Shown: in pieces, positions 41,529-52,872 of the stretch | How positions within the stretch are numbered: the stretch's first letter is position 1 | Layout of the letters: every line of letters starts with the position of its first letter | From: Balneola sp. EhC07 | GTDB lineage: Bacteria; Bacteroidota; Rhodothermia; Balneolales; Balneolaceae | Assembly (NCBI RefSeq): GCF_001650905.1 | Contig: NZ_LXYG01000014.1 | Location: forward strand, 248,001 to 312,000 | Reading direction: 5' to 3' | Length of the DNA: 64,000 bases | Program-made: the position numbers and the translations under genes | The notes under the pieces: generated by a model | Databases searched by the model: none | What the model was told of the DNA's origin: nothing | Seen by the model: the letters and a program-made list of their open reading frames with translations, nothing else

Positions 41529-41948
41529 CTCACATTTTTCTTAACTATCCATCTGACGGATTACCCGTCTGATGGATGATAACGACATTCATGAGCGAAT
41601 GCGAAGTGATCTCCGTAAAAAGCTAAAGCATATCGAATTCAGGAGATTGCGTCGTCACATCCGTTCCTCGCAAATGGATTTTTTTCATATATACAAACGC
41701 AGGGGATTAAGCCCTTGCTAGCATATGTACGAGCCTTTTTTTTTTATTTTTCTGCAAAATCTCCAAAAAACCGTCATCCTGAACCATGTGCTGAACTTGA
41801 TTCAGTATTGTTTCAGGATCTTTGTGGGCTTTATTTCTGATTGTTATAACCAACACAAGAATCAACGCTGTTACAACTTCCATTATCTCGATTTTAATCT
41901 GGTTTCGATGCTCTGCGACGGACCCTGACCTCCCCAACTCACAATCAA

Positions 41949-42040
41949 AGTCATTCCTGCGAAGGCAGGAATCTGGATTGTTATCAAAGAGTGTGATCTT
42001 CAAAAAGATCCAGATCTCGGGCATACGCCGCGAGATGACC
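41949..42040. repeat. Long imperfect palindrome (GTCATTCCTGCG ... CGCGAGATGACC), island A copy 1
   Basis: Left arm GTCATTCCTGCGAAGGCAGG contains its own hairpin (CCTGC-GAAG-GCAGG) and ends in ATCTGGAT; the right arm begins GATCCAGATC and ends CGCGAGATGACC. The arms are complementary at both ends (GTCAT/ATGAC and ATCTGGAT/ATCCAGAT), so the whole unit can fold as a nested hairpin. Confidence 0.75.
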
Positions 42041-42136
42041 CGTTTTATTATTTTTTTAGCAGAATTTCCAAAAATTCATCTGATATGTAGCCCGTCTGAT
42101 GTATCTTCGTAACAACAGGTCTGAGAAATTACTCAC

Positions 42137-42326
42137 TTACTTTTGTCTTGATACAAAAGTAACAAAAGATCAAGGCGAAGTATTAAAACCGGGCTCGCTT
42201 AATTGACGCTGAATAATTCCAAAGGTCTTCGTTCTTTTAGAGAAAATTTCTACACTCTTCACCTGAAGGAATTATTCCCACTTCGCGGACGCTCACAATT
42301 CTTGCTCACTAACCGGTTTTAATACT
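42137..42326 (+). repeat. Structured ~190-bp element, copy A1
   Basis: Hairpin TTACTTTTGT/ACAAAAGTAA (42137-42146, 42153-42162), outer stem AGTATTAAAACCGG/CCGGTTTTAATACT (42179-42192, 42313-42326) and inner stem GAATAATTCC/GGAATTATTC (42211-42220, 42268-42277). The inner stem is followed at once by AAAGGTCTTCGTTCT. Strand is arbitrary; the apical motif reads on the plus strand. Confidence 0.75.
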
Positions 42327-42685
42327 AAGGCCGATAAAAGTATAACCGTCATCCTGAACTTGTTTCAGAATCTTCGTAGGGCATATTTCTAGTTGTTCTA
42401 TCCGAAACACCAATCAATGTTTAATAACCTCCATCACCCCGCTTTCAGCGAAATGATGGATAGCTACTTCTCCGTCTGTCGGGCTTTGCACGGCTGACGG
42501 ATTTTGGTTGTAGTGGAAGGAACGGACCGCCCCGGCTCCGAATCAAATTCGTAGGCTCCGAGTAGTTCGCCCCTCCTTGGTTAAGGAGGGGAATTCCCGA
42601 ATTGATTATAAATTTTATCAACGAGTCCTCCTCCTGTTGCAGGAGGAGACAGAGGAGGTCTTTAACTTTAGAAATCACAATCAAA

Positions 42686-42777
42686 GTCATTCCTGCGAAG
42701 GCAGGAATCCGGATCGTAATCAAAGAATGAGTTCTTCAAAAAGATCCGTATCTCAGACATACGCCACGAGATGGCCT
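42686..42777. repeat. Long imperfect palindrome, island A copy 2
   Basis: Diverged copy of the unit at 41949-42040 with several substitutions (ATCCGGAT, GATCCGTATC, CACGAGATGGCC). Part of the pairing is kept: CCGGAT on the left arm faces ATCCG on the right. Confidence 0.65.
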
Positions 42778-42872
42778 GTTTTATTATTTTCTCTGCAGAA
42801 CTTCCAAAGATTCATCTGACGGATTACCCGTCTGATGAATCTTCGTAACAACAGGTCTGAGAAATTACTCAC

Positions 42873-43062
42873 TTACTTTTGTCTTGATACAAAAGTAACA
42901 AAAGATCAAGGCGAAGTATTAAAACCGGGCTCGCTTAATTGTCGCTGAATAATTCCAAAGGTCTTCGTTCTTTTAGAGAAAATTTCTACACTCTTCACCT
43001 GAAGGAATTATTCCCACTTCGCGGACGCTTACAATTCTTGCTCACTAACCGGTTTTAATACT
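42873..43062 (+). repeat. Structured ~190-bp element, copy A2
   Basis: Almost identical to copy A1, with all stems perfect: hairpin 42873-42898, outer stem 42915-42928 with 43049-43062, inner stem 42947-42956 with 43004-43013. The few differences from A1 fall outside the paired segments. Confidence 0.75.
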
Positions 43063-43262
43063 AAGGCCGATAAAAGTAGAACCGTCATCCTGAACTTGTT
43101 TCAGGATCTTTGTGGGGTTTATTTCTATTTGTGAAATCCAGCACACCGATCATCGCTTTCACAACCTCAACTAGTCCCATCCTCTGGTTTCTTCTGGTTA
43201 GTATTAGCCGTATTTTGTGAGATCAATGAAATCCCGTTTTTATAAACAGTTCCCTCAATACT

Positions 43263-43907: not shown

Positions 43908-44620
43908 TGAGTTTTAAAGAATCATCTGTTTTGATAACAGGAGGGAGCAAGGGAATCGGTCTTTCCATAGCAAAGATGTTCGCGGAAAAAACTGATCATC
44001 CTTTAGTGCTGATTGCACGCAACACTTCCGATCTGGAAAAAGCGAAACAGCAATGTCTGGATTGGGGCGCATCAAAAGTAGAAACCATTTCTGCAGACCT
44101 GACCTCAGAAGAAGAAATTGCCGCTATTGATTTCAGATCTTTGAATCCGGGAATTTTAGTAAATAATGCCGGCGTATTTTTATTTAAGCAGTTAGCAGAT
44201 ACCACCGCCGAAGAGTTTGACCGACAATATCGACTCAATACATTTTCGACCTTCAATATCACAAAACAAGTGCTCCCGGTGTTGAAAGAACAGGAGCGAG
44301 GCTTGATCGTGAATATTTGCTCTCAGGCTTCCAAAAAAGGCTATGGAGACAGCGGCGCATACACCATGAGCAAACATGCGCTTTTGGGTTACACGCGTTC
44401 TCTGCGGAAAGAATTAGCCAAAACCAATATTGCCGTTACGGCGATAAATCTGGGACAAACCTATTCCACTTCCTGGGAAGGGGTGGATATTGAAACTGAA
44501 AAGCTGATCGATCCGGAAGATGTGGGAAGAATGATCGTTTCCCTTTCTGAACTCAGCGCCAGAAGCGTGGTGGAAGAAATCGATATGATGCCACAGGGCG
44601 GAGAAGTAAAGCCGATGTAG
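43907..44620 (+). CDS. Short-chain dehydrogenase/reductase (SDR)
   Basis: A 237-residue NAD(P)-dependent reductase. The cofactor motif TGGSKGIG is at 11-18, NNAG follows in ILVNNAGVF, and the active-site pair is Y152xxxK156 in AYTMSKHALLG. It resembles sepiapterin-reductase or ketoreductase members; the exact substrate is open. The start overlaps queE (TAATG). The last 46 coding bases are duplicated 638 bases downstream, beyond the parDE pair. Confidence 0.88.
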   Translation: MSFKESSVLITGGSKGIGLSIAKMFAEKTDHPLVLIARNTSDLEKAKQQCLDWGASKVETISADLTSEEEIAAIDFRSLNPGILVNNAGVFLFKQLADTTAEEFDRQYRLNTFSTFNITKQVLPVLKEQERGLIVNICSQASKKGYGDSGAYTMSKHALLGYTRSLRKELAKTNIAVTAINLGQTYSTSWEGVDIETEKLIDPEDVGRMIVSLSELSARSVVEEIDMMPQGGEVKPM

Positions 44621-44624
44621 GCTT
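44575..44624 (+). repeat. 50-bp direct repeat, copy 1 (SDR 3' end)
   Basis: Holds the last codons and TAG stop of the SDR gene plus four bases. It matches 45213-45262 at 49 of 50 positions (G here, T there). Confidence 0.95.
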
Positions 44625-44641
44625 TTAATTATTGATTCGGA

Positions 44642-44929
44642 TTACAAAATGCTTGACAAATCCTGCTTTCCAATAACTGCCATTATTTCTACTCTCTCAT
44701 TATATATTTTGAAATAAATACTATCCGAACCACAAACACATCGTCGGTATCCTGATTTGATGTAATCAACGGATTCAAAAGAGAATGGTCTTTCAGAAAT
44801 ATTATCAAAGCAATCAAATAGAGCTTTAAAATACAGATCGGCTTGTTGTACACCGAACTGTTTGATACCGTACTGATGAATTCTTATTAAATCTATTTTA
44901 GCTTCATTGCTTAACCGATAATCAGCCAT
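44642..44929 (-). CDS. parE: ParE-family toxin
   Basis: A 95-residue RelE/ParE-superfamily toxin. The pattern YRLSNEAKIDLIRIHQYGIKQFG, then ISERPFSFESVDYIKSGYRR and VEIMAVIGKQDLSSIL matches ParE, whose members poison DNA gyrase. It begins eight bases inside the ParD gene end. Together they form a complete toxin-antitoxin cassette between two copies of a 50-bp repeat. Confidence 0.87.
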   Translation of the reverse strand: MADYRLSNEAKIDLIRIHQYGIKQFGVQQADLYFKALFDCFDNISERPFSFESVDYIKSGYRRCVCGSDSIYFKIYNERVEIMAVIGKQDLSSIL

Positions 44930-45164
44930 TTTTCAGCTGAGATTTTGATTGGTTTAGTATCTCTTCTTTAGTGTTGGTGGTAAAACCACTTTTTTCAGCT
45001 CTTTCGAGTTTTGCTCTGATCCAGTTTATCTCAGCGTTCTGATTTCTTGCCTGCCGCACTAGATCGTTAACTAATTCACTTTTACTGGAATATTCTTCGT
45101 TCTCAACCTGAGATTTCAACCATTCATCATTTGGTCTTGTAAATGTAATGCTCTGACGTGCCAT
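44922..45164 (-). CDS. parD: ParD-like antitoxin
   Basis: An 80-residue antitoxin. The N-terminal ribbon-helix-helix is clear (SITFTRPNDEWLKSQVENEEYSS and KSELVNDLVRQA); the C-terminal tail would wrap the toxin. It overlaps parE by eight bases. A strong promoter lies 11 bases upstream. Confidence 0.87.
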   Translation of the reverse strand: MARQSITFTRPNDEWLKSQVENEEYSSKSELVNDLVRQARNQNAEINWIRAKLERAEKSGFTTNTKEEILNQSKSQLKNG

Positions 45165-45174
45165 GTTTTTGATG

Positions 45175-45206
45175 CAAAATTACACCAATACTGTATCTGA
45201 AGCAAA
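45175..45206 (-). promoter_or_regulatory. Bacteroidetes-type promoter of parDE (TTTG-N20-TAATTTTG)
   Basis: On the minus strand, TTTG at 45206-45203 is followed by 20 bases and then TAATTTTG at 45182-45175. This is an exact match to the -33 TTTG and -7 TAnnTTTG consensus with the right spacing. It lies inside the cassette, seven bases from repeat copy 2, so the cassette carries its own promoter. Confidence 0.75.
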
Positions 45207-45212
45207 TGTTGC

Positions 45213-45262
45213 AGAAATCGATATTATGCCACAGGGCGGAGAAGTAAAGCCGATGTAGGCTT
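45213..45262 (+). repeat. 50-bp direct repeat, copy 2 (orphan SDR tail)
   Basis: A second copy of the SDR tail with no SDR body in front of it. It ends on the last base of the crotonase stop codon, so removing the parDE unit with one repeat would leave the SDR and crotonase genes tail to tail with three bases between their stops. Confidence 0.95.
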
Positions 45263-46074
45263 CAATCCTTAAAATCAGGTTTTCGCTTTTCTTTCATGGC
45301 TTCAAATACTTCAGCCATATCATCAGAAAATAACATAGTGGAATTCCACTCTGCGATATATTCAAGGCCGTCTTCGACGGAATGATCTCTTGAATGTCGT
45401 AATACGTTTTTTGTGCCCCGAATGGAAATTGGTGATTTTTCCGCAATAGTTGCGGCAATTTTCATAACACCTTCCTGCAATAATTCTTCCGTATCAAAAC
45501 AGTTAATTACTAAATGGATTTCTTTTGCTTCGGGACCGAATACATTCTTTCCGGTGTAGGCCATTTCCGCTACGATGGAAGGGGAGATGATCTTTGGTAA
45601 GCGTTGAAGCGTGCCCAGATCAGCAACCATAGCCAGGTCAATTTCTTTGATGCAGAAATAAGCGTCTTTAGTGCAATATCTCAGATCACATGCAGCAACA
45701 ATATCTACTCCACCGCCGATACACCCGTTATGGACAGCAGCGATCACCGGTTTGGAACATTTTTCTATGGAAGTAACGGCCTGCTGAAGGGTTAGAATGA
45801 ATTCTTTGGCTTTCTCACTTCGTTGGTCTTGATCGGAAATAGCTCGCAATTGATCGATCGACATTAACAACTCCAGATCTATTCCGGCACAGAAGTGCTT
45901 TCCTTCTCCCGAGAGAATGATCACTCTGACTTCAGCGGTTTCTGAAAGCGTTTCAAAAATTGATCGCATCTCAAGCCAGGCGTCCATGTTAAGCGCATTC
46001 GACTTTTCCGGCCGATTAAAAGCAACCCGTGCTATTTTATGTTCTATGTCAACCTTGAAGTGATCGTATTCCAT
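45262..46074 (-). CDS. Enoyl-CoA hydratase/isomerase (crotonase) family protein
   Basis: A 270-residue crotonase-fold enzyme acting on acyl-CoAs. The oxyanion-hole and active-site regions are visible: GEGKHFCAGIDLELL and HNGCIGGGVDIVAACDLRYC. The acid usually at the second position appears in ACDLRYCTKDAYFCIKEIDL. It resembles dienoyl-CoA isomerase-type members, although this is not certain. Its stop abuts repeat copy 2. Confidence 0.85.
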   Translation of the reverse strand: MEYDHFKVDIEHKIARVAFNRPEKSNALNMDAWLEMRSIFETLSETAEVRVIILSGEGKHFCAGIDLELLMSIDQLRAISDQDQRSEKAKEFILTLQQAVTSIEKCSKPVIAAVHNGCIGGGVDIVAACDLRYCTKDAYFCIKEIDLAMVADLGTLQRLPKIISPSIVAEMAYTGKNVFGPEAKEIHLVINCFDTEELLQEGVMKIAATIAEKSPISIRGTKNVLRHSRDHSVEDGLEYIAEWNSTMLFSDDMAEVFEAMKEKRKPDFKD

Positions 46075-46286
46075 TGCAATGAATTTGGTGGATGGCTGAG
46101 GGTGAAATAGTGTTTAATATCAATACTCACAAGTTTATATCAAAGTGAGCACCTGTTGAATGGATGAAGAAAGGATGAGATTATACTGATGGGATATAAA
46201 GAATGAATGTCAGTTACTTATATAACTAAAACGCGGGAACGACCTTTTAGCTGAAGAGTTTAGAGATTTGCGGATTAATCAGACAT

Positions 46287-46661
46287 CTATGACTTTTTAG
46301 TCATTGTTAGAAGGTGTATTTCTTTATCAATATCAGTTTTTATTTCAGGTTCGGTAATTTCCTCTCCGGTTTCAACCTGTTTGTGAACAACATTTTTTAC
46401 TTTCTTAGATGTTGACTTTAGATCCAGTGGAGTTGTGTTTAAATCTTTATAAATAATGCTAATCAGTACATAACGACAGATTGTTCTCAAATTGTCATAC
46501 TCTTCAATATCCTCTGTTAAGGTCGTTATGGAATGATTTACATAAACGGTATTTGGCTCCAATAAAAACTCATTAATTGCTTTCTCAACCGTTTTAGTTA
46601 TCGTGAACTTTGCATCATTGCTAAGTTTTAATTTAAATATCTTATGTTTAGTAATCGACAT
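46287..46661 (-). CDS. Small protein of unknown function, third gene of the OLD-nuclease cluster
   Basis: A 124-residue protein I cannot assign. It is charged and soluble, without signal peptide or membrane helix. A central hydrophobic stretch (CRYVLISIIYKDL) is flanked by a Thr/Lys-rich segment and an acidic/Lys tail. The ATG at 46661 overlaps the nuclease gene end by 14 bases; a TTG three codons upstream is possible. The overlap implies the two are made together. It may be an accessory or immunity protein of a defence unit. Confidence 0.6.
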   Translation of the reverse strand: MSITKHKIFKLKLSNDAKFTITKTVEKAINEFLLEPNTVYVNHSITTLTEDIEEYDNLRTICRYVLISIIYKDLNTTPLDLKSTSKKVKNVVHKQVETGEEITEPEIKTDIDKEIHLLTMTKKS

Positions 46662-48426
46662 GTTTTTCAATTTTGCTAAATGATGATTTAATTTTGTCGC
46701 TTAGTTTAAAAATGTTCGATAAAATTTCGTTCTGTTCCTTTTCGGGACATTTGTCCACATAATCTAAGAGATATCTAATTACATCCTGTTTAGTAATACT
46801 GGCAGTACTATTTGCGGGTAAAAAAGATTTAAAGTAATCTGATAAAGTATTGATTATAGGTGTTTCTAATTCAGTTTTATATTCGTAAGGTTCATATTTT
46901 TTGTTAAAAACTTCAAGTGAACTTAGTGATTCACAATATTCATTAAATGCAGAAACATAGTTTTGTTGTGGGAATAAATCTTCGAATGTTCTTTCTTTTT
47001 TATCATTAAATACAGCATTAATCTCAATCTCTTCCCAATTCGTTTCTTTTATATTATTTTTAAAAGCTTTGTTTTTCTTTATTCTCTCAGCTTCTTTATC
47101 ACTATCTAGTATTACTATTCCTGATAGCTTTAAATTATTTTTTCCGAGATAATTTATTGCTTGTGGGATATTTGAGACACCATCAGCATTATAAATGTTC
47201 ATCCATTCAAGATCTTGATATTTTTCAAATTGGAATATTCTATGAAACCCTAGTTTCTCAGTATTCCCCTCAACAATCAAATTTATATCACCAATTAAAA
47301 AACTATCATTCAGCATTATACCCAACTCTTTTCTTAGTATTTGGTATTTGTTTAAAAATGGTTTTTTGTTGATTCTTGTTCCTTCAGTAGCAGATTTATT
47401 TATGAATAGTAATGAATCTATACAGTTTCTAACCGCTAAAAATGGATTGTGCGTTGTGTATAAGATCTGCGAAGATTCTGAAATGTCATCAAATGAATTA
47501 AGTAAATCTTTAGCTCCTTTTGGGTGAAGACTATTACCTGGCTCATCTAATAGAATTACTGTATTTCTACCTTGATTAATCTCTTTTGAATGAAGTTTGT
47601 TAACCAAAAATGAAAAATAGTATTGAAAACCTGGACTTCGTTCATTAATTGAAAAGCTCTTTCCTGAATTATCTCTAATTATTAGATTTAAGCGGTCTCC
47701 AAATGTTGGAGCTATTTTAATATTAATACTTTGATCTTGCTTGTAGTGTTTTTTAAATATCCTGTTCAGTTTGATTTCTATATCAGATAAATATGTGGTT
47801 ACAAAATTGATATCTGAATTGTTTAAATCATTGAAGTCTGTACAACCGCCAATAATTAGCAATTTCCTGAATGTCTCAAATTTTTTATCATTTCCTAATA
47901 ATTCATCAACTGTTGAAGGTTCAATGAGTAAATCTTCTTTTTCATAGTATTGGATCTCAGGGTATAATTGAGTAAAGAATTCACTATAAAATTTTGCAAG
48001 TTCATTTATGTTTTTAGATAATTCGAATCCGAATTTATTTCTTTCTAGAACGCTAATTGATATATTTGAAAAGCCATTGCCCCATCTTTTTAATTGCAGA
48101 ATACATTTGTCAGATTGTTTCGGAAACGGTAATTGTTCAGGTTTTAGAAATGGTTTAGCAATGTTTACCAGTTGTAAATAATCCGATTTGGATAATTCAA
48201 AAGAACCTATGACTAAGGGTAGGCCATTAGGGTAATTACTTGAGCTTTTGTTCAAAAGCTTTGAATTTAGTTCAGTATCTAAAATATTTAAAAAACTTGT
48301 TGCAAGTATTAGGCTAGATTTACCACTTTCATTTTTACCAACAAGACAAAGTTGATTTGAATTGATTGGAATAACTTCATGACGAATTGACTTAAAGTCA
48401 TGTATTTCAACGGATTTTAATATCAT
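46648..48426 (-). CDS. OLD-family ATPase/TOPRIM nuclease
   Basis: A 592-residue protein with an ABC-type ATPase and a TOPRIM domain. Walker A GKNESGKSS is at 30-38; the Walker B/D-loop LLDEPGNSLHP has D294 and E295; TTHNPF follows as the H-loop. The TOPRIM acids are E386 in LIVEGNTEK and D441/D443 in VILDSDKEA. This is the fold of OLD nucleases and GajA, which cut DNA and act in phage defence. No UvrD helicase gene (the Gabija partner) is adjacent; instead small genes lie on both sides. The stretch looks AT-richer than its neighbours, which hints at transfer. Confidence 0.85.
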   Translation of the reverse strand: MILKSVEIHDFKSIRHEVIPINSNQLCLVGKNESGKSSLILATSFLNILDTELNSKLLNKSSSNYPNGLPLVIGSFELSKSDYLQLVNIAKPFLKPEQLPFPKQSDKCILQLKRWGNGFSNISISVLERNKFGFELSKNINELAKFYSEFFTQLYPEIQYYEKEDLLIEPSTVDELLGNDKKFETFRKLLIIGGCTDFNDLNNSDINFVTTYLSDIEIKLNRIFKKHYKQDQSINIKIAPTFGDRLNLIIRDNSGKSFSINERSPGFQYYFSFLVNKLHSKEINQGRNTVILLDEPGNSLHPKGAKDLLNSFDDISESSQILYTTHNPFLAVRNCIDSLLFINKSATEGTRINKKPFLNKYQILRKELGIMLNDSFLIGDINLIVEGNTEKLGFHRIFQFEKYQDLEWMNIYNADGVSNIPQAINYLGKNNLKLSGIVILDSDKEAERIKKNKAFKNNIKETNWEEIEINAVFNDKKERTFEDLFPQQNYVSAFNEYCESLSSLEVFNKKYEPYEYKTELETPIINTLSDYFKSFLPANSTASITKQDVIRYLLDYVDKCPEKEQNEILSNIFKLSDKIKSSFSKIEKHVDY

Positions 48427-48427
48427 A

Positions 48428-48640
48428 TCATTTTAGATAATAAGTTAACCGGATTGTTACAATAACATGTTGAGTATTCGAACTCCAGGGGGTAATCTTA
48501 ATGTCTTCAGAATCAATTTTTCCGATAACATCTTTATTACTTGACAACCATGCATCTCTTTTATCTGTTGCAGTTTTAATTGCTGTTTCAAGTTGTTGCA
48601 TTTGATTGTTTGTTCCGGTGAAATAAATTGTTTTTTTCAT
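48428..48640 (-). CDS. Small protein, first gene of the OLD-nuclease cluster
   Basis: A 70-residue protein I do not recognise. It begins MKKTIYFTGTNNQMQQLE, has a helix-rich middle and ends in a beta-like HVIVTIRLTYYLK. The stop (TGA) is separated by one base from the nuclease ATG, so the two are coupled. An inverted repeat lies 28 bases upstream of its start. It could be a sensor, a regulator or an inhibitor; nothing in the sequence decides. Confidence 0.55.
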   Translation of the reverse strand: MKKTIYFTGTNNQMQQLETAIKTATDKRDAWLSSNKDVIGKIDSEDIKITPWSSNTQHVIVTIRLTYYLK

Positions 48641-48667
48641 TTAGTAATTTTTATGACTAGAACAATT

Positions 48668-48696
48668 GCATAACATGTATACTAGTCATGTTATGC
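48668..48696. promoter_or_regulatory. Perfect 10-bp inverted repeat upstream of the OLD cluster
   Basis: GCATAACATG (48668-48677) and CATGTTATGC (48687-48696) are perfect inverted copies with a nine-base spacer. They lie 28-56 bases before the first gene of the cluster, a good operator position. They could also form an RNA or DNA hairpin. Confidence 0.5.
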
Positions 48697-48858
48697 CAGT
48701 TTGGTGATTAAATTTTTATCTATTCTATTCTTAAAATAATTTGGATAAAGTGAACAATTCCAGCAAGTAAAGCAAAAACTTATTATTTGGGTATTTCCGG
48801 TTGGTTGTTCAGGGGAATTGCAATTTCGGAATGGATTCATCCGCGGTAAAACCATTCG

Positions 48859-48878
48859 GGGCGGATTGCGATCCGCCC
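48859..48878. repeat. Palindrome GGGCGGAT-TGCG-ATCCGCCC
   Basis: An eight-base perfect stem with a TGCG loop, of the REP-like type common in intergenic DNA. It has no T-run and is not a terminator on either strand. Confidence 0.6.
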
Positions 48879-48973
48879 GTACGGAATTCGGGTTTTTAAT
48901 TCACCATTCTAAATACGGTTAAACATATCGCGTACAAAATTCGGTTTGCCAATCTGCTCTGACTTGCTCCGAT

Positions 48974-49555
48974 TCAGCGGTCGTTCAGACCTTTGCCTTC
49001 CAGAATGTCCGGAATACATTTTTCGACTCGTGAGGCCCGGATTTTAGATTGTTTAGCTCCGGAAAAGTGGAGGAGGTAGCCTCTTTGTCGGCCGGGAGTT
49101 AGCGAGTCAAAAGCTTCTTTCAGTTCAGGGATGGCATCCAGCCTTTCCCGGAATTCTTCTGCCATTTCGAAGTCAGATGTCTTTTTCATAGGTACTTCCA
49201 ATCCTGCTTTTTCAACTTCAACCGCTTCAAAGATATAAGATCGCAAGACCGCCATCATATCGTTTATTTGTTCCACATCGGTGAAGCGAATTTGTCGTGC
49301 CGACTGTACATTTTTGGTCTGCTGTACTAAAATATCTTCTGCATCATTCAGCAGCACTCCTTTATGAAACAACAGCGCGCAATAGTCTTTGAATCCGTGT
49401 ATCAACACCACATTGTTCCCATTTACGGTGTAGCATGGTTTGCCCCATTTTAATTCTTCGGTCAGTCCGCAATCCAGAATAATGGTTCTCAATAATTCAT
49501 ATTCGTCCTGCCATTTACTGTTTTTATTAAAAAAGAAATCAACCTTGGGATTCAT
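48974..49555 (-). CDS. YdeI/OmpD-associated-like protein (DUF1801-type N-terminus)
   Basis: A 193-residue protein. The N-terminal half resembles the DUF1801 fold (CGLTEELKWGKPCYTVNGNNVV and CALLFHKGVLLNDAEDILVQQ), and the C-terminal half has the YdeI/OmdA pattern DSLTPGRQRGYLLHFSGAKQSKIRASRVEKC. These are cytoplasmic proteins of unknown activity. The start ATG at 49555 is clear. The 5' side faces repeat island B. Confidence 0.78.
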   Translation of the reverse strand: MNPKVDFFFNKNSKWQDEYELLRTIILDCGLTEELKWGKPCYTVNGNNVVLIHGFKDYCALLFHKGVLLNDAEDILVQQTKNVQSARQIRFTDVEQINDMMAVLRSYIFEAVEVEKAGLEVPMKKTSDFEMAEEFRERLDAIPELKEAFDSLTPGRQRGYLLHFSGAKQSKIRASRVEKCIPDILEGKGLNDR

Positions 49556-49912
49556 GGTGTAGATTTACTGATTAGCATTGGGATTTTACGTTCCGCGGGT
49601 CTGAGAACCTGATATATAGTAAAAATAATCGTTGATCTTTCGAAACGGAAGTATTAGCCAAAGATTCATTTTTATCCTTACAACCGCAGTGCTGAAGCCC
49701 TTGCTAGCTTATGTACGAGCCCATTTCTCAATATTTTCAATTTGGGGTCATCCTGAACTTGTTTCAGGATCTTTGCGGGGTTTGTTTTTGGTTGTTATAT
49801 CCAACACATCGATCAACGCTGACACAACCTCCTTTATCTTGATTTTAATCTGGTTCCGATGCTCTGCGCCGGAAACGAATTTCTCTTGCTAAGAAGCAGT
49901 TTTTGGCTCAGT

Positions 49913-50100
49913 GTACTTTTGTACCGCCAAAAGTACCAAAAGCTCCCGACAAGAATTATTGGTGCGAACTCCATTACATCGACTAATCATTACAAAAGGT
50001 CTTCGTTCTAACTGAACATATTCACGAATCAGCCAGAAGTGTAATGATTGCTCCTTCGGAGCCGTCGATTTCATTGCGTTCTTGGATCGCCAATAATTCT
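49913..50100 (+). repeat. Structured ~190-bp element, copy C
   Basis: Same architecture as the island A copies with different stem sequences: hairpin GTACTTTTG/CAAAAGTAC (49913-49921, 49928-49936), outer stem AGAATTATTGG/CCAATAATTCT (49952-49962, 50090-50100), inner stem AATCATTACA/TGTAATGATT (49985-49994, 50040-50049). The inner stem is again followed at once by AAAGGTCTTCGTTCT (49995-50009). An extra GCTCC-TTC-GGAGC hairpin lies on the 3' side. Confidence 0.75.
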
Positions 50101-50273
50101 AAAGGTCGGATTTGATTGTATTTTTTTGATGGTAGTTATTTTATGCCAGAACCTTCTTTAACAAATTCATAATCACATAAGTAGGTCATCCTGAACTTGT
50201 TTCAGGATCTTCGTGGGGTTCAAATCTGGTTTTTGTATACGACACAACCATCAAGGCTGACACTATCTCATAA

Positions 50274-50384
50274 GTCATTCCTGCGAAGCCTGCCTGCGGC
50301 GTAGGCAGGGCAGGAATCTGGATCGTTATCACTAGCATAATCCTCAAAAAGATCCAGATCTCGGGCATACGCCGCGAGATGACC
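50274..50384. repeat. Long imperfect palindrome with a nested palindrome in its loop
   Basis: The left arm CATTCCTGCGAAG ... CAGGAATCTGGATC is interrupted by CCTGCCTGCGGCGTAGGCAGG, itself a hairpin, and the right arm is GATCCAGATC ... CGCGAGATGACC. It is longer than the other copies because of this insertion. Confidence 0.7.
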
Positions 50385-50750
50385 AAGATCGATTGTCATC
50401 AACGAAGGTTGTAAATAATCGCCGGGCGTGAACGCCCTACTAGCATAAATTTTGTTATGTGATTTTTAAACGAGCAGATCTTTCAGGGCCGGCGGTTTGC
50501 GATTTACCCACCTTCAATCGCTGCGGATTAAAATCCTGGCTAGTTAACTTGAGTAAATATAAATCACCACCAACATTCAGTATTAAGTTCGCTAGAGAGG
50601 ACTTCAGTCCGTCCGGCTTTTATTAGTAATTAAATTCCTCGTCTTCTTTCTGTTGCAGGAATCTACCTCCGAAAATTTAATACCCGCTTCCTCATTATCT
50701 CATAAGTGTTATCTTTCATTTATGAGATCGAATTATTTGGTGCAATTTAC

Positions 50751-51878
50751 ATGAGTGTAATATTTTTTCTGGGAGCAGTTCACGGATTGATGCTTACTTT
50801 TCTGCTGGTTTCGAAAAAAGTGAATCAACTTTCGAACCGGATTCTGGCTGGATTAATGCTGGTTTTTACAATCGACCTGGCTATGGCGGCTTTGCTGAGT
50901 GTAGGTTTGCATCACAACTATCCTCATGTGATCGGTCTGGATTTCTCAATTACTTTACTGTACGGCCCGTTGCTCTATCTTTATTCTGTAACATTAATAA
51001 AAGGAAATGAGCGACTCACTCTTGCTCAGAAAAAGCATTTCATCCCGTTTATCCTTTTAACTCTGTATTTCCTTCCGTTTTATTTTAAATCAGGGAAAAC
51101 CAAACTAAGTCTGCTTAGCGAAACCGGAGAATTGCAGTACGGAAGTGAATGGATCACTCATTTCAAAGTAGTGTACAGTCTTACTTATTTACCTTTTATA
51201 ATCAGGGATCTGTATCAGTACAGAAAAAAGATCAGAGCGAATTATTCCACATTAGAGAAACGAAACCTGGATTGGTTGCAGGGTTTTGTACTGGCAGGAA
51301 CGCTGCTCGGAATTACAGCAGGAGTTTTATACACGATAAGTTCATTCAGTGACATACTTAGCGAGTACACCGATTTCACACTTCTCGCTTCTACCATTTT
51401 TGTGTACAGCATCGGTTATATGGGATTAAAACAGGCTGAGTTTTTTACTCCGATCGGAAGGGAAGAGAAGCAAGTTACCAAAGAGGAGAAACCACGACAG
51501 GAAAGTTACACCCGTTCCGGATTAAATGAAGAACAAGGGAAAGAATTCCATCAGGAGCTTTGCACATTGATGGAAAAGGAAAAACCATATTTACGCAGCG
51601 ATCTCAGTTTAGCCGAACTTGCAGGGCTGATCAATATTTCCACCCACAATTTAACGGAAGTGATCAATACATTTGCCGATGCCAGTTTCTACGATTTCGT
51701 AAATAGCTATCGGGTAGAAAACGTAAAACAAGCGATCAAAGATCCTGAATTTCAAAATTATACGTTATTGGGAATTGGATTAGAATCGGGTTTTAATTCT
51801 AAATCATCGTTTAACTCGGTTTTCAAAAAACATACAGGATTAACACCGTCGCAGTATAAAAAGTCTCTTGAGGGTTAA
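50751..51878 (+). CDS. AraC-family regulator with a multi-pass membrane N-terminus
   Basis: A 375-residue protein with about seven hydrophobic segments in the first 240 residues (MSVIFFLGAVHGLMLTFLLV opens the first) and a C-terminal AraC helix-turn-helix pair (LSLAELAGLINISTHNLTEV, and GIGLESGFNSKSSFNSVFKKHTGLTPSQY across two spans). This membrane-sensor plan is common in Bacteroidota. A GTG at 50706 is also in frame, but the ATG at 50751 gives a standard first helix. Ligand unknown. It lies between repeat islands B and C. Confidence 0.82.
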   Translation: MSVIFFLGAVHGLMLTFLLVSKKVNQLSNRILAGLMLVFTIDLAMAALLSVGLHHNYPHVIGLDFSITLLYGPLLYLYSVTLIKGNERLTLAQKKHFIPFILLTLYFLPFYFKSGKTKLSLLSETGELQYGSEWITHFKVVYSLTYLPFIIRDLYQYRKKIRANYSTLEKRNLDWLQGFVLAGTLLGITAGVLYTISSFSDILSEYTDFTLLASTIFVYSIGYMGLKQAEFFTPIGREEKQVTKEEKPRQESYTRSGLNEEQGKEFHQELCTLMEKEKPYLRSDLSLAELAGLINISTHNLTEVINTFADASFYDFVNSYRVENVKQAIKDPEFQNYTLLGIGLESGFNSKSSFNSVFKKHTGLTPSQYKKSLEG

Positions 51879-52418
51879 GATAGAAGAGGTAGAGTCATCC
51901 TGTCCGCCAGCTGGCGGATCAGGATCTTTGTGAGGTTTAATTCTGGTTGTTATATCCGACACTCCAATCAACGCTGTTACGACTACCATCACCTCGTTTT
52001 CAACGGAATGATGGATAGCTAGTTCTCCGTCCATCGGGCTTTGCATGGCTGACGGATTTTGTTTGCTGAGGACACAGATCATTTTAAAGGATATTAAACA
52101 AGCAGATCCTTCAGGTTCTGCGGTTTGTGTTTTTGCCGTCCTTTAATTGCTGCGGGATAAATCCTTGGCTGGTGTACCTGAGTAGATCTAAATCACTACC
52201 AATATTCAGTATTAAGTTCTCTAGAGAGGACTTCAGTCCGACCGAATTCTCTTCGTAATTAAATTCCTCGTCCACAAAACCGCAGGGCTGAAGCCCTTGC
52301 TAGCTTATGCACGAGGCTTTCCTTCCTTATTGTTTCAGGTTCTTTGTGAGGTTTATTGCTAGTTGTTATATCCGACATTCCAATCAACGCTGACACAACC
52401 TCCATCACCCCGCTTTAC

Positions 52419-52509
52419 GGTCATTCCTGCGAAGGCAGGAATCTGGATCGTTATCACAAACATAATCCTCTAAAACTATCCAGATTTCGGGCATACGCCG
52501 CGAGATGAC
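52419..52509. repeat. Long imperfect palindrome, island C
   Basis: GGTCATTCCTGCGAAGGCAGG ... ATCTGGATC on the left, TATCCAGAT ... CGCGAGATGACG on the right. It is one of the least changed copies of the family. Confidence 0.7.
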
Positions 52510-52872
52510 GTCCTTTTTTTATTTTTGTTGTTGAGCAAGAAACGGACCTCCCCAACTCCGAAACAAATTGATGAGTTCTGAGTAGTTCGCCCCTCCTTAG
52601 ATAAGGAGGGGAATTCCCGAGTTGATTCTAATTTTATCAGCGAGTTCTCCTCTTGTTGCAGGAGGAGACAGAGGAGGTCTTTTCTGCTTAGCGGTCAGGA
52701 ATCCGATCGTTATCAAGAGTGTAGTCTTCATATAAATCCAGATCTCGGGCATACGCCGCGAGATGACCGAGCTCAAAGGCATTACCAATTCACAATCTCC
52801 ACAAGGACAGCGTAATCTGCAAAAAAGAAGTCCAATCCCAACGGTGTGGACGCTTAAGGTGATATATGAAGG

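Follow-up and report, generated by a model that had tools for sequence, protein, structure and literature searches.

A three-gene cassette encoding an OLD-type nuclease and two small proteins, a candidate anti-phage system at a variable locus of Balneola sp. EhC07

A 64,000-nucleotide (nt) stretch of the Balneola sp. EhC07 genome (the window, to whose positions all coordinates refer) contains a cassette of some 2.4 kb, comprising p592, a gene for an OLD-type nuclease, and two small genes, p70 and p124. With a probability of roughly 0.6, this cassette is considered to be a horizontally moving system, complete in itself, of defence against phages (or mobile elements), in which the OLD nuclease would be controlled by two small partners. 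None of the known OLD classes, namely, the lone gene, OLD with a UvrD helicase, OLD with a retron and split PARIS, fits the gene set of the cassette. A compact unit with two tiny partners would allow the activation of OLD nucleases, and their restraint from acting on their own host, to be dissected directly.

The three genes are all read leftward, a direction not given in a first-pass annotation of the same DNA, and form a tight operon (Table 1). The coordinates of the open reading frames (ORFs) bear out the coupling described in that annotation, with p70 and p592 being separated by a single base (48427) and p592 and p124 overlapping by 14 bases (46648-46661). The cassette was also said to be richer in A and T than its surroundings; indeed, its GC content is 0.290, as compared with 0.374 for the window, and is below that of every equal-length stretch outside the cassette (minimum, 0.328; mean, 0.377; standard deviation, 0.024; steps of 50).

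Table 1. Positions of the cassette genes, the sequence motifs of p592 and the elements bordering the cassette.
Feature	Position	Strand	Description
p70	48428-48640	-	First gene, 70 amino acids; predicted beta-alpha-beta-beta
p592	46648-48426	-	OLD-type ABC ATPase and TOPRIM nuclease, 592 amino acids
p124	46287-46661	-	Third gene, 124 amino acids; predicted beta-alpha-beta-beta and two C-terminal helices, low confidence
Walker A of p592	48313-48339	-	GKNESGKSS, residues 30-38
Walker B of p592	47539-47556	-	ILLDEP, residues 291-296; LDEP invariant in 5/5 cassette copies
TOPRIM acidic motif	47257-47271	-	EGNTE, residues 386-390; VEGNTE invariant in 5/5 cassette copies
TOPRIM DSD motif	47098-47106	-	Residues 441-443; invariant in 5/5 cassette copies
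Inverted repeat GCATAACATG-9-CATGTTATGC	48668-48696	.	Boundary of constant flank and variable cargo
Constant flank	45262-46107	.	Identity of 93-96% with four congeners, ending at about 46101-46107
Constant flank	48661-49832	.	Identity of 85-92% with four congeners across most of its length

A scan of genome contigs with single-protein patterns of p592, an approach that reaches close relatives only, revealed four related loci (L002-L005), found in Leptobacterium flavescens, Brumimicrobium sp., Epilithonimonas sp. and Dysgonomonas sp., where the p592 counterparts are 84, 74, 67 and 55% identical to the query, respectively. At all four loci, the three genes appear in the same order and the 14-nt overlap between p592 and p124 is kept, while the p70/p592 junction measures +1, +1, +2 and -4 nt. 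With tblastn (E up to 0.1), a p124 counterpart was matched at each locus. A p70 counterpart is present by place at every locus and was matched by tblastn at the same threshold at two (L002 and L005); at L003 and L004, it is a frame of 63 or 64 amino acids at the same position, with the same MKKT start. The p124 ORF (46287-46670) would yield 127 amino acids from a TTG codon and 124 from the ATG at 46661, the latter start being common to all five cassette copies. In Epilithonimonas sp., the cassette stands by itself, with what look by eye like housekeeping genes on either side.

Both small genes look real, because silent-site differences exceed those that change amino acids. Over ten pairwise comparisons, the ratio of amino-acid-changing to silent differences per site (pN/pS) was 0.31-0.77 for p70, 0.15-0.69 for p124 and 0.12-0.41 for p592, with the closest pair (the window and L002) giving 0.31, 0.15 and 0.12, respectively; silent sites are near saturation in these comparisons, and a strong signal comes from the closest pairs only. 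Invariant columns numbered 11 of 70 in p70, 32 of 124 in p124 and 267 of 592 in p592, such that p70 diverges fastest. The first-pass annotation had allowed that the small genes might be spurious frames, in which case the system would shrink to a lone nuclease. With conservation at four loci and all three genes under constraint, that reading was rejected.

In the genomes of the four relatives, the best match to a protein of the window that we take from its sequence to be TatD, a housekeeping protein, is 38-44% identical, as compared with 55-84% for p592, from which we conclude that the cassette has been passed horizontally between distant bacteria as a unit. Carriage by plasmids was rejected, given that the p592 matches fall under 60% identity in all 86 plasmid records (five of which were inspected); p124 was not matched in any plasmid at E up to 1, in a search that did not include p70. 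Carriage by phages was likewise rejected, with one weak phage record being returned for p592. Among viral contigs, nine OLD loci were found at 26-34% identity to p592 and none was found for p124.

The cassette is, moreover, sporadic. Proteins of the p592 type were detected in one of 394 genomes of the phylum, this being the genome considered here, and in two of 395 (the seed and genome G913), one of 393 (the seed) and one of 120 (the seed) in other samples; in the samples of 394, 395 and 393 genomes, at most three candidates per genome were scored among the matches listed, and remote copies may be missed. A p124 profile detected two of 244 genomes of the class, namely, this genome and a fragment with an internal stop (E 0.007), together with three additional weak matches in the four seed genomes (E 0.035-0.055). 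A p70 profile similarly detected two of 394 genomes of the phylum, again this genome and a fragment with an internal stop (E 0.008).

The features by which the OLD family is recognized, namely, an ABC ATPase at the N-terminus, together with its Walker A and B motifs, and acidic TOPRIM residues toward the C-terminus, are present in p592. In profile searches, the protein matched two ATPase families of Pfam, AAA_15 (64.5 bits; cut-off, 32.1) and AAA_21 (44.8 bits; cut-off, 27), and, at the head of the best 25 of 73 matches to PADLOC models, Old (85.0 bits), AriA (62.9 bits), ATPase-Toprim_I-B (54.9 bits), AbiLi (54.8 bits) and GajA (50.2 bits). Pfam, PADLOC and the motifs are all in agreement with the earlier naming of p592 as an ATPase/TOPRIM nuclease of the OLD family. 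In the Walker A motif, residue 34 is cysteine in L005 and the remainder is invariant, such that the five cassette copies read GKNE[SC]GKSS. In an alignment of 20 OLD proteins, corresponding to the five cassettes and 15 others, the Walker motifs of p592 align with those of the other proteins. All 15 other sequences retain E386 and D441, three (L015, L018 and L030) retain D443, and E390 is replaced by aspartate in all 15, with the nearest outsider presenting EGNAD in place of the EGNTE of the cassettes. In the tree of these 20 sequences, the cassette OLD proteins form one group (support, 97/94), to which the protein from G913 (L030) is nearest, the six together being supported at 100/100; L015 and L018 lie on long branches and the deeper branching order is unsure. 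At L030 (1366-3129), the G913 OLD gene lies between hsdM- and hsdS-like genes, as named by eye.

The first-pass annotation had proposed that the small genes be sought beside OLD nucleases in other genomes. Both were found in order in the four close relatives, and the p70 and p124 profiles detected neither protein (E up to 0.5) at the 15 other OLD loci. These profiles were built from the five cassettes and test likeness to those five, and the 15-locus control is partial, in that L007 and L009 start at the OLD gene and so lack its upstream side, L010 offers some 650 bases upstream and L030 offers 1.5 kb on each side. Conservation of the small genes appears to hold inside one OLD clade only.

As had been noted earlier, no helicase is present and the small genes are unrecognized. 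No Pfam or PADLOC family was found for p70 at E up to 1; for p124, no family reached a curated cut-off, and PADLOC likewise gave no match at E up to 1. Pfam matched some individual members of the p124 and p70 alignments at E as low as 0.0008 and 0.002, respectively, yet these matches were mutually inconsistent and were taken as chance. The AlphaFold2 model of p70 has a mean predicted local distance difference test (pLDDT) score of 90.5, with strands at residues 2-11, 39-51 and 59-69 and a helix at residues 14-34. The top VIA matches of this model are two structural-genomics chains, one being DUF74 (Z 6.8), followed by SIMPL-type proteins (Z 6.3-6.7) and dodecins (Z 5.6-6.3), where a Z under 8 may reflect merely a common arrangement; the best Foldseek match is a dodecin at E 0.005, with none at E 0.001 or less. 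As such, p70 is predicted to share the beta-alpha-beta-beta layout of dodecin and YbjQ (DUF74), with no sequence match to either. The p124 model presents the same order of elements as p70 and then two C-terminal helices, at low confidence, and its VIA and Foldseek matches, being weak, were not used for assignment.

The site occupied by the cassette was next compared across 19 genomes (this one included), eight of which are of the genus. In four congeners, more than 800 bases match this genome along the flank that contains gene 45262-46074, which we take to be enoyl-CoA hydratase-like; this flank is not shared by the other three congeners, and one distant genome gave a 25-base match. The opposite flank, with its presumably YdeI/DUF1801-like gene (48974-49555; 193 amino acids), is common to the same four congeners, a few other genomes matching parts. 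Between these flanks, G100 (L048) contains a 500-amino-acid reverse transcriptase (AbiP2, 645 bits), G054 (L050) contains SIR2 (432 bits) and HerA (809 bits) together with a PfkB-like gene, G038 contains a 780-amino-acid kinase and a GmrSD/HNH protein, and G026 contains a 360-amino-acid protein without a family. A known defence system is thus found in two of the four congeners, a defence-like pair in one and an unknown gene in one; no empty version of the site was found. To judge from the constant flanks and exchanged contents, the locus is an exchange hotspot holding defence genes, and the cassette shares with anti-phage systems a location in such a hotspot. The first-pass annotation had spoken of an accessory region, and AbiP2-type and SIR2-HerA genes at the same site make the defence context stronger than was claimed. 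With different contents in each of the five genomes that share its flanks, the hotspot is a place to look for further defence genes. The G026 gene (L047, 2049-3131), with no Pfam or PADLOC match, is by position one such candidate. In G054, the flank stretch 48661-48894 is repeated between the PfkB-like gene and the SIR2-HerA pair (L050, 4504-4736 and 2057-2910), as if modules had been added together with a copy of the flank.

The inverted repeat reported upstream of the cassette does exist and is perfect, with 10-bp arms and a 9-base spacer; it is not, however, specific to the cassette. Related repeats are found at the same position before different cargo in L048 and L049 and in a second copy in L050, although none was found in L047. 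The repeat was accordingly rejected as an operator of the cassette itself, since it sits in flank common to other cargo. By eye, the leaders at L002-L005 hold no copy of the repeat, with L003 presenting a different palindrome nearby. The repeat is, on present comparisons, a feature of the locus that says nothing on how the cassette is controlled, and may be a shared promoter or an exchange point. A 31-base form of the repeat occurs at five places in four of the eight genomes of the genus, two being at the hotspot. Elsewhere, the 31-nt repeat is found at G026:C15:722-752, G054:C13:54321-54351 and G038:C33:194735-194765, and the G038 copy adjoins a gene encoding 245 amino acids.

In considering the neighbours of the related cassettes, 10 ORFs were picked from L002, L003 and L005, of which Pfam named nine, and neighbours of a defence type were seen at all three loci. 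L003 offers Abi_C, HEPN_AbiU2 and Fic (PDC-S04, 306 bits), and the gene adjoining p124 there is of the GldM type and not related to defence. L005 offers a NADAR-helix-turn-helix protein and two phage-type integrases, and L002 offers an AHJR-like restriction endonuclease and RusA, together with a gene for which no family was found.

Known OLD systems are grouped into lone genes (class 1), Gabija (class 2), retrons (class 3) and split PARIS (class 4) (PMC10568477). The class 1 proteins P2 Old and Thermus scotoductus OLD (6P74) combine, as p592 does, an ABC ATPase at the N-terminus with a TOPRIM domain at the C-terminus in a single protein, and 6p74 is the best sequence match of p592 in the PDB (25.6 bits). 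Class 1 systems are, however, single genes (PMC10568477), whereas the cassette adds two abutting small genes that are conserved in four of four relatives. Gabija (GajA and GajB) is likewise a defence unit of several genes, one of them for an OLD nuclease, and GajA models match p592 at up to 50 bits; yet Gabija includes a UvrD/PcrA/Rep-like helicase, whereas p592 is accompanied, as in all four relatives, by p70 and p124, which in the window belong to no helicase family. The NCBIfam model of the Retron-Eco8 effector aligns with residues 1-532 of p592 at 35 bits, far under the cut-off of 250. Systems of that type have an adjacent reverse transcriptase and a non-coding RNA (ncRNA), whereas the cassette has no reverse transcriptase gene; a hidden ncRNA was rejected, as no Rfam match was found at gathering score in 44000-51000 and the leaders are unlike one another by eye. 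PARIS AriA resembles p592 in its OLD-type ATPase and TOPRIM likeness, as reflected in the AriA score given above, but PARIS splits AriA and AriB into two genes, whereas p592 contains both domains and is joined by two small partners instead of AriB. Fused forms of PARIS are, however, described (PMC10568477), and kinship of these with the cassette is possible. An HNH-linked OLD dyad is reported in BREX loci (PMC12839542), and at least 11 uncharacterized OLD clades have been listed (PMC12796447). In open-licence papers, to which the search was confined, no description was found of an OLD system with small beta-alpha-beta-beta partners.

In OLD nucleases, the state of the ATPase influences the TOPRIM nuclease. 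In the proposed defence cassette, p592 would be the effector, an ABC ATPase that is probably dimeric like its solved relatives and whose nucleotide state would gate the TOPRIM nuclease. Translational coupling would supply p70 and p124 as dedicated partners at set ratios, and the two, as small oligomeric subunits of beta-alpha-beta-beta layout, would most likely bind p592. Of these, p70, translated first and the fastest to vary, as expected of a protein facing a changing partner, may be the restraining or cue-sensing subunit, while p124 may serve as an assembly or substrate-directing subunit. Upon detection of infection, the nuclease would be released and p592 would nick or cut nucleic acid, presumably DNA and possibly tRNA, with growth of the infected cell most likely being stopped. 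Among relatives, GajA nicks DNA (PMC10568477), whereas AriB (PMC12839542) and P2 Old (as cited in PMC13261556) cleave tRNA. A bolder version, offered tentatively and well short of even odds, is that p70 and p124, dissimilar in sequence and similar in their beta-alpha-beta-beta layout, form small rings or cages in which p70 senses a phage cue and p124 aims the ATP-gated OLD nuclease, the two taking the place of the helicase of Gabija and of the multicopy single-stranded DNA of retrons, and so defining a further OLD class.

Several observations weigh against the proposed defence cassette. Only five copies are known, such that partner specificity is drawn from one small clade, and the nearest OLD protein outside that clade (G913, L030) has no small genes alongside. 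The p70 frames of L003 and L004 were missed by tblastn and recognized by place, start and alignment, being 43 and 37% identical, respectively. The p124 model is poor (mean pLDDT, 65.1), and sequence homology between p70 and p124 was not detectable, such that the two were rejected as sequence homologues. The OLD-like_TOPRIM family of Pfam scored 23.1 bits on p592, 0.1 below its cut-off of 23.2. As to context, eight of the 10 neighbouring ORFs had no PADLOC match, and L004 lies among genes that, by eye, do not look like defence genes.

The position and rapid divergence of p70 are also what would be seen in a toxin-antitoxin-like module, in which p592 would be toxic alone and p70 (or p124) would be an antitoxin lost on infection. 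Such a module overlaps the proposed defence cassette and is deemed unlikely, if deserving of attention. In its favour, an OLD protein can be toxic when expressed (PMC13261556). Yet there are two small partners rather than one, Pfam recognized no DNA-binding domain in p70, and p592 is a large ATPase and not a typical small toxin. As regards gene order, p70 is small and is the first gene, abutting p592, and the first gene is a common position for an antitoxin. Both small genes, their order and the 14-nt overlap are kept under constraint across hosts in which the presumed TatD is 38-44% identical, making it improbable that p592 is a class 1-like OLD nuclease and p70 and p124 passengers of little importance to its action. 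Pointing the other way are the lack of both genes at L030 and the ability of a lone OLD protein to act alone when overexpressed (PMC13261556).

A role in housekeeping or DNA repair and not in immunity, such as that of the archaeal OLD protein Cran1, would be in line with the cellular roles that OLD ATPases can take (PMC12796447). Such a role is nonetheless very doubtful, given the single occurrence among 394 sampled genomes of the phylum, the horizontal spread of the cassette and the other cargo, including defence genes, with which congeners fill this site. The known systems of the hotspot are anti-phage systems, whereas nothing specific speaks against plasmids or other mobile DNA as the target. 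The anti-plasmid system Wadjet likewise brings together an ABC ATPase and a TOPRIM domain of OLD-like type (PMC10568477), and defence against such DNA, and not against phages, is given a slim chance.

Beyond the hydratase-side flank lies a pair of genes that we take, by likeness of sequence, to be ParDE-like (44642-45164), flanked by the copies of a 55-nt direct repeat, 95% identical (44570-45262), that duplicates the 3' end of a presumably short-chain dehydrogenase/reductase (SDR)-like gene upstream of the pair. This pair is missing in G100 (L048), where one repeat copy marks an apparent empty site, and the filled form is found in the three other congeners. Interspersed repeats of several families, 31-300 nt long and present in up to seven copies, were also seen on both sides of the cassette, at 41689-43210 and 49675-52774.

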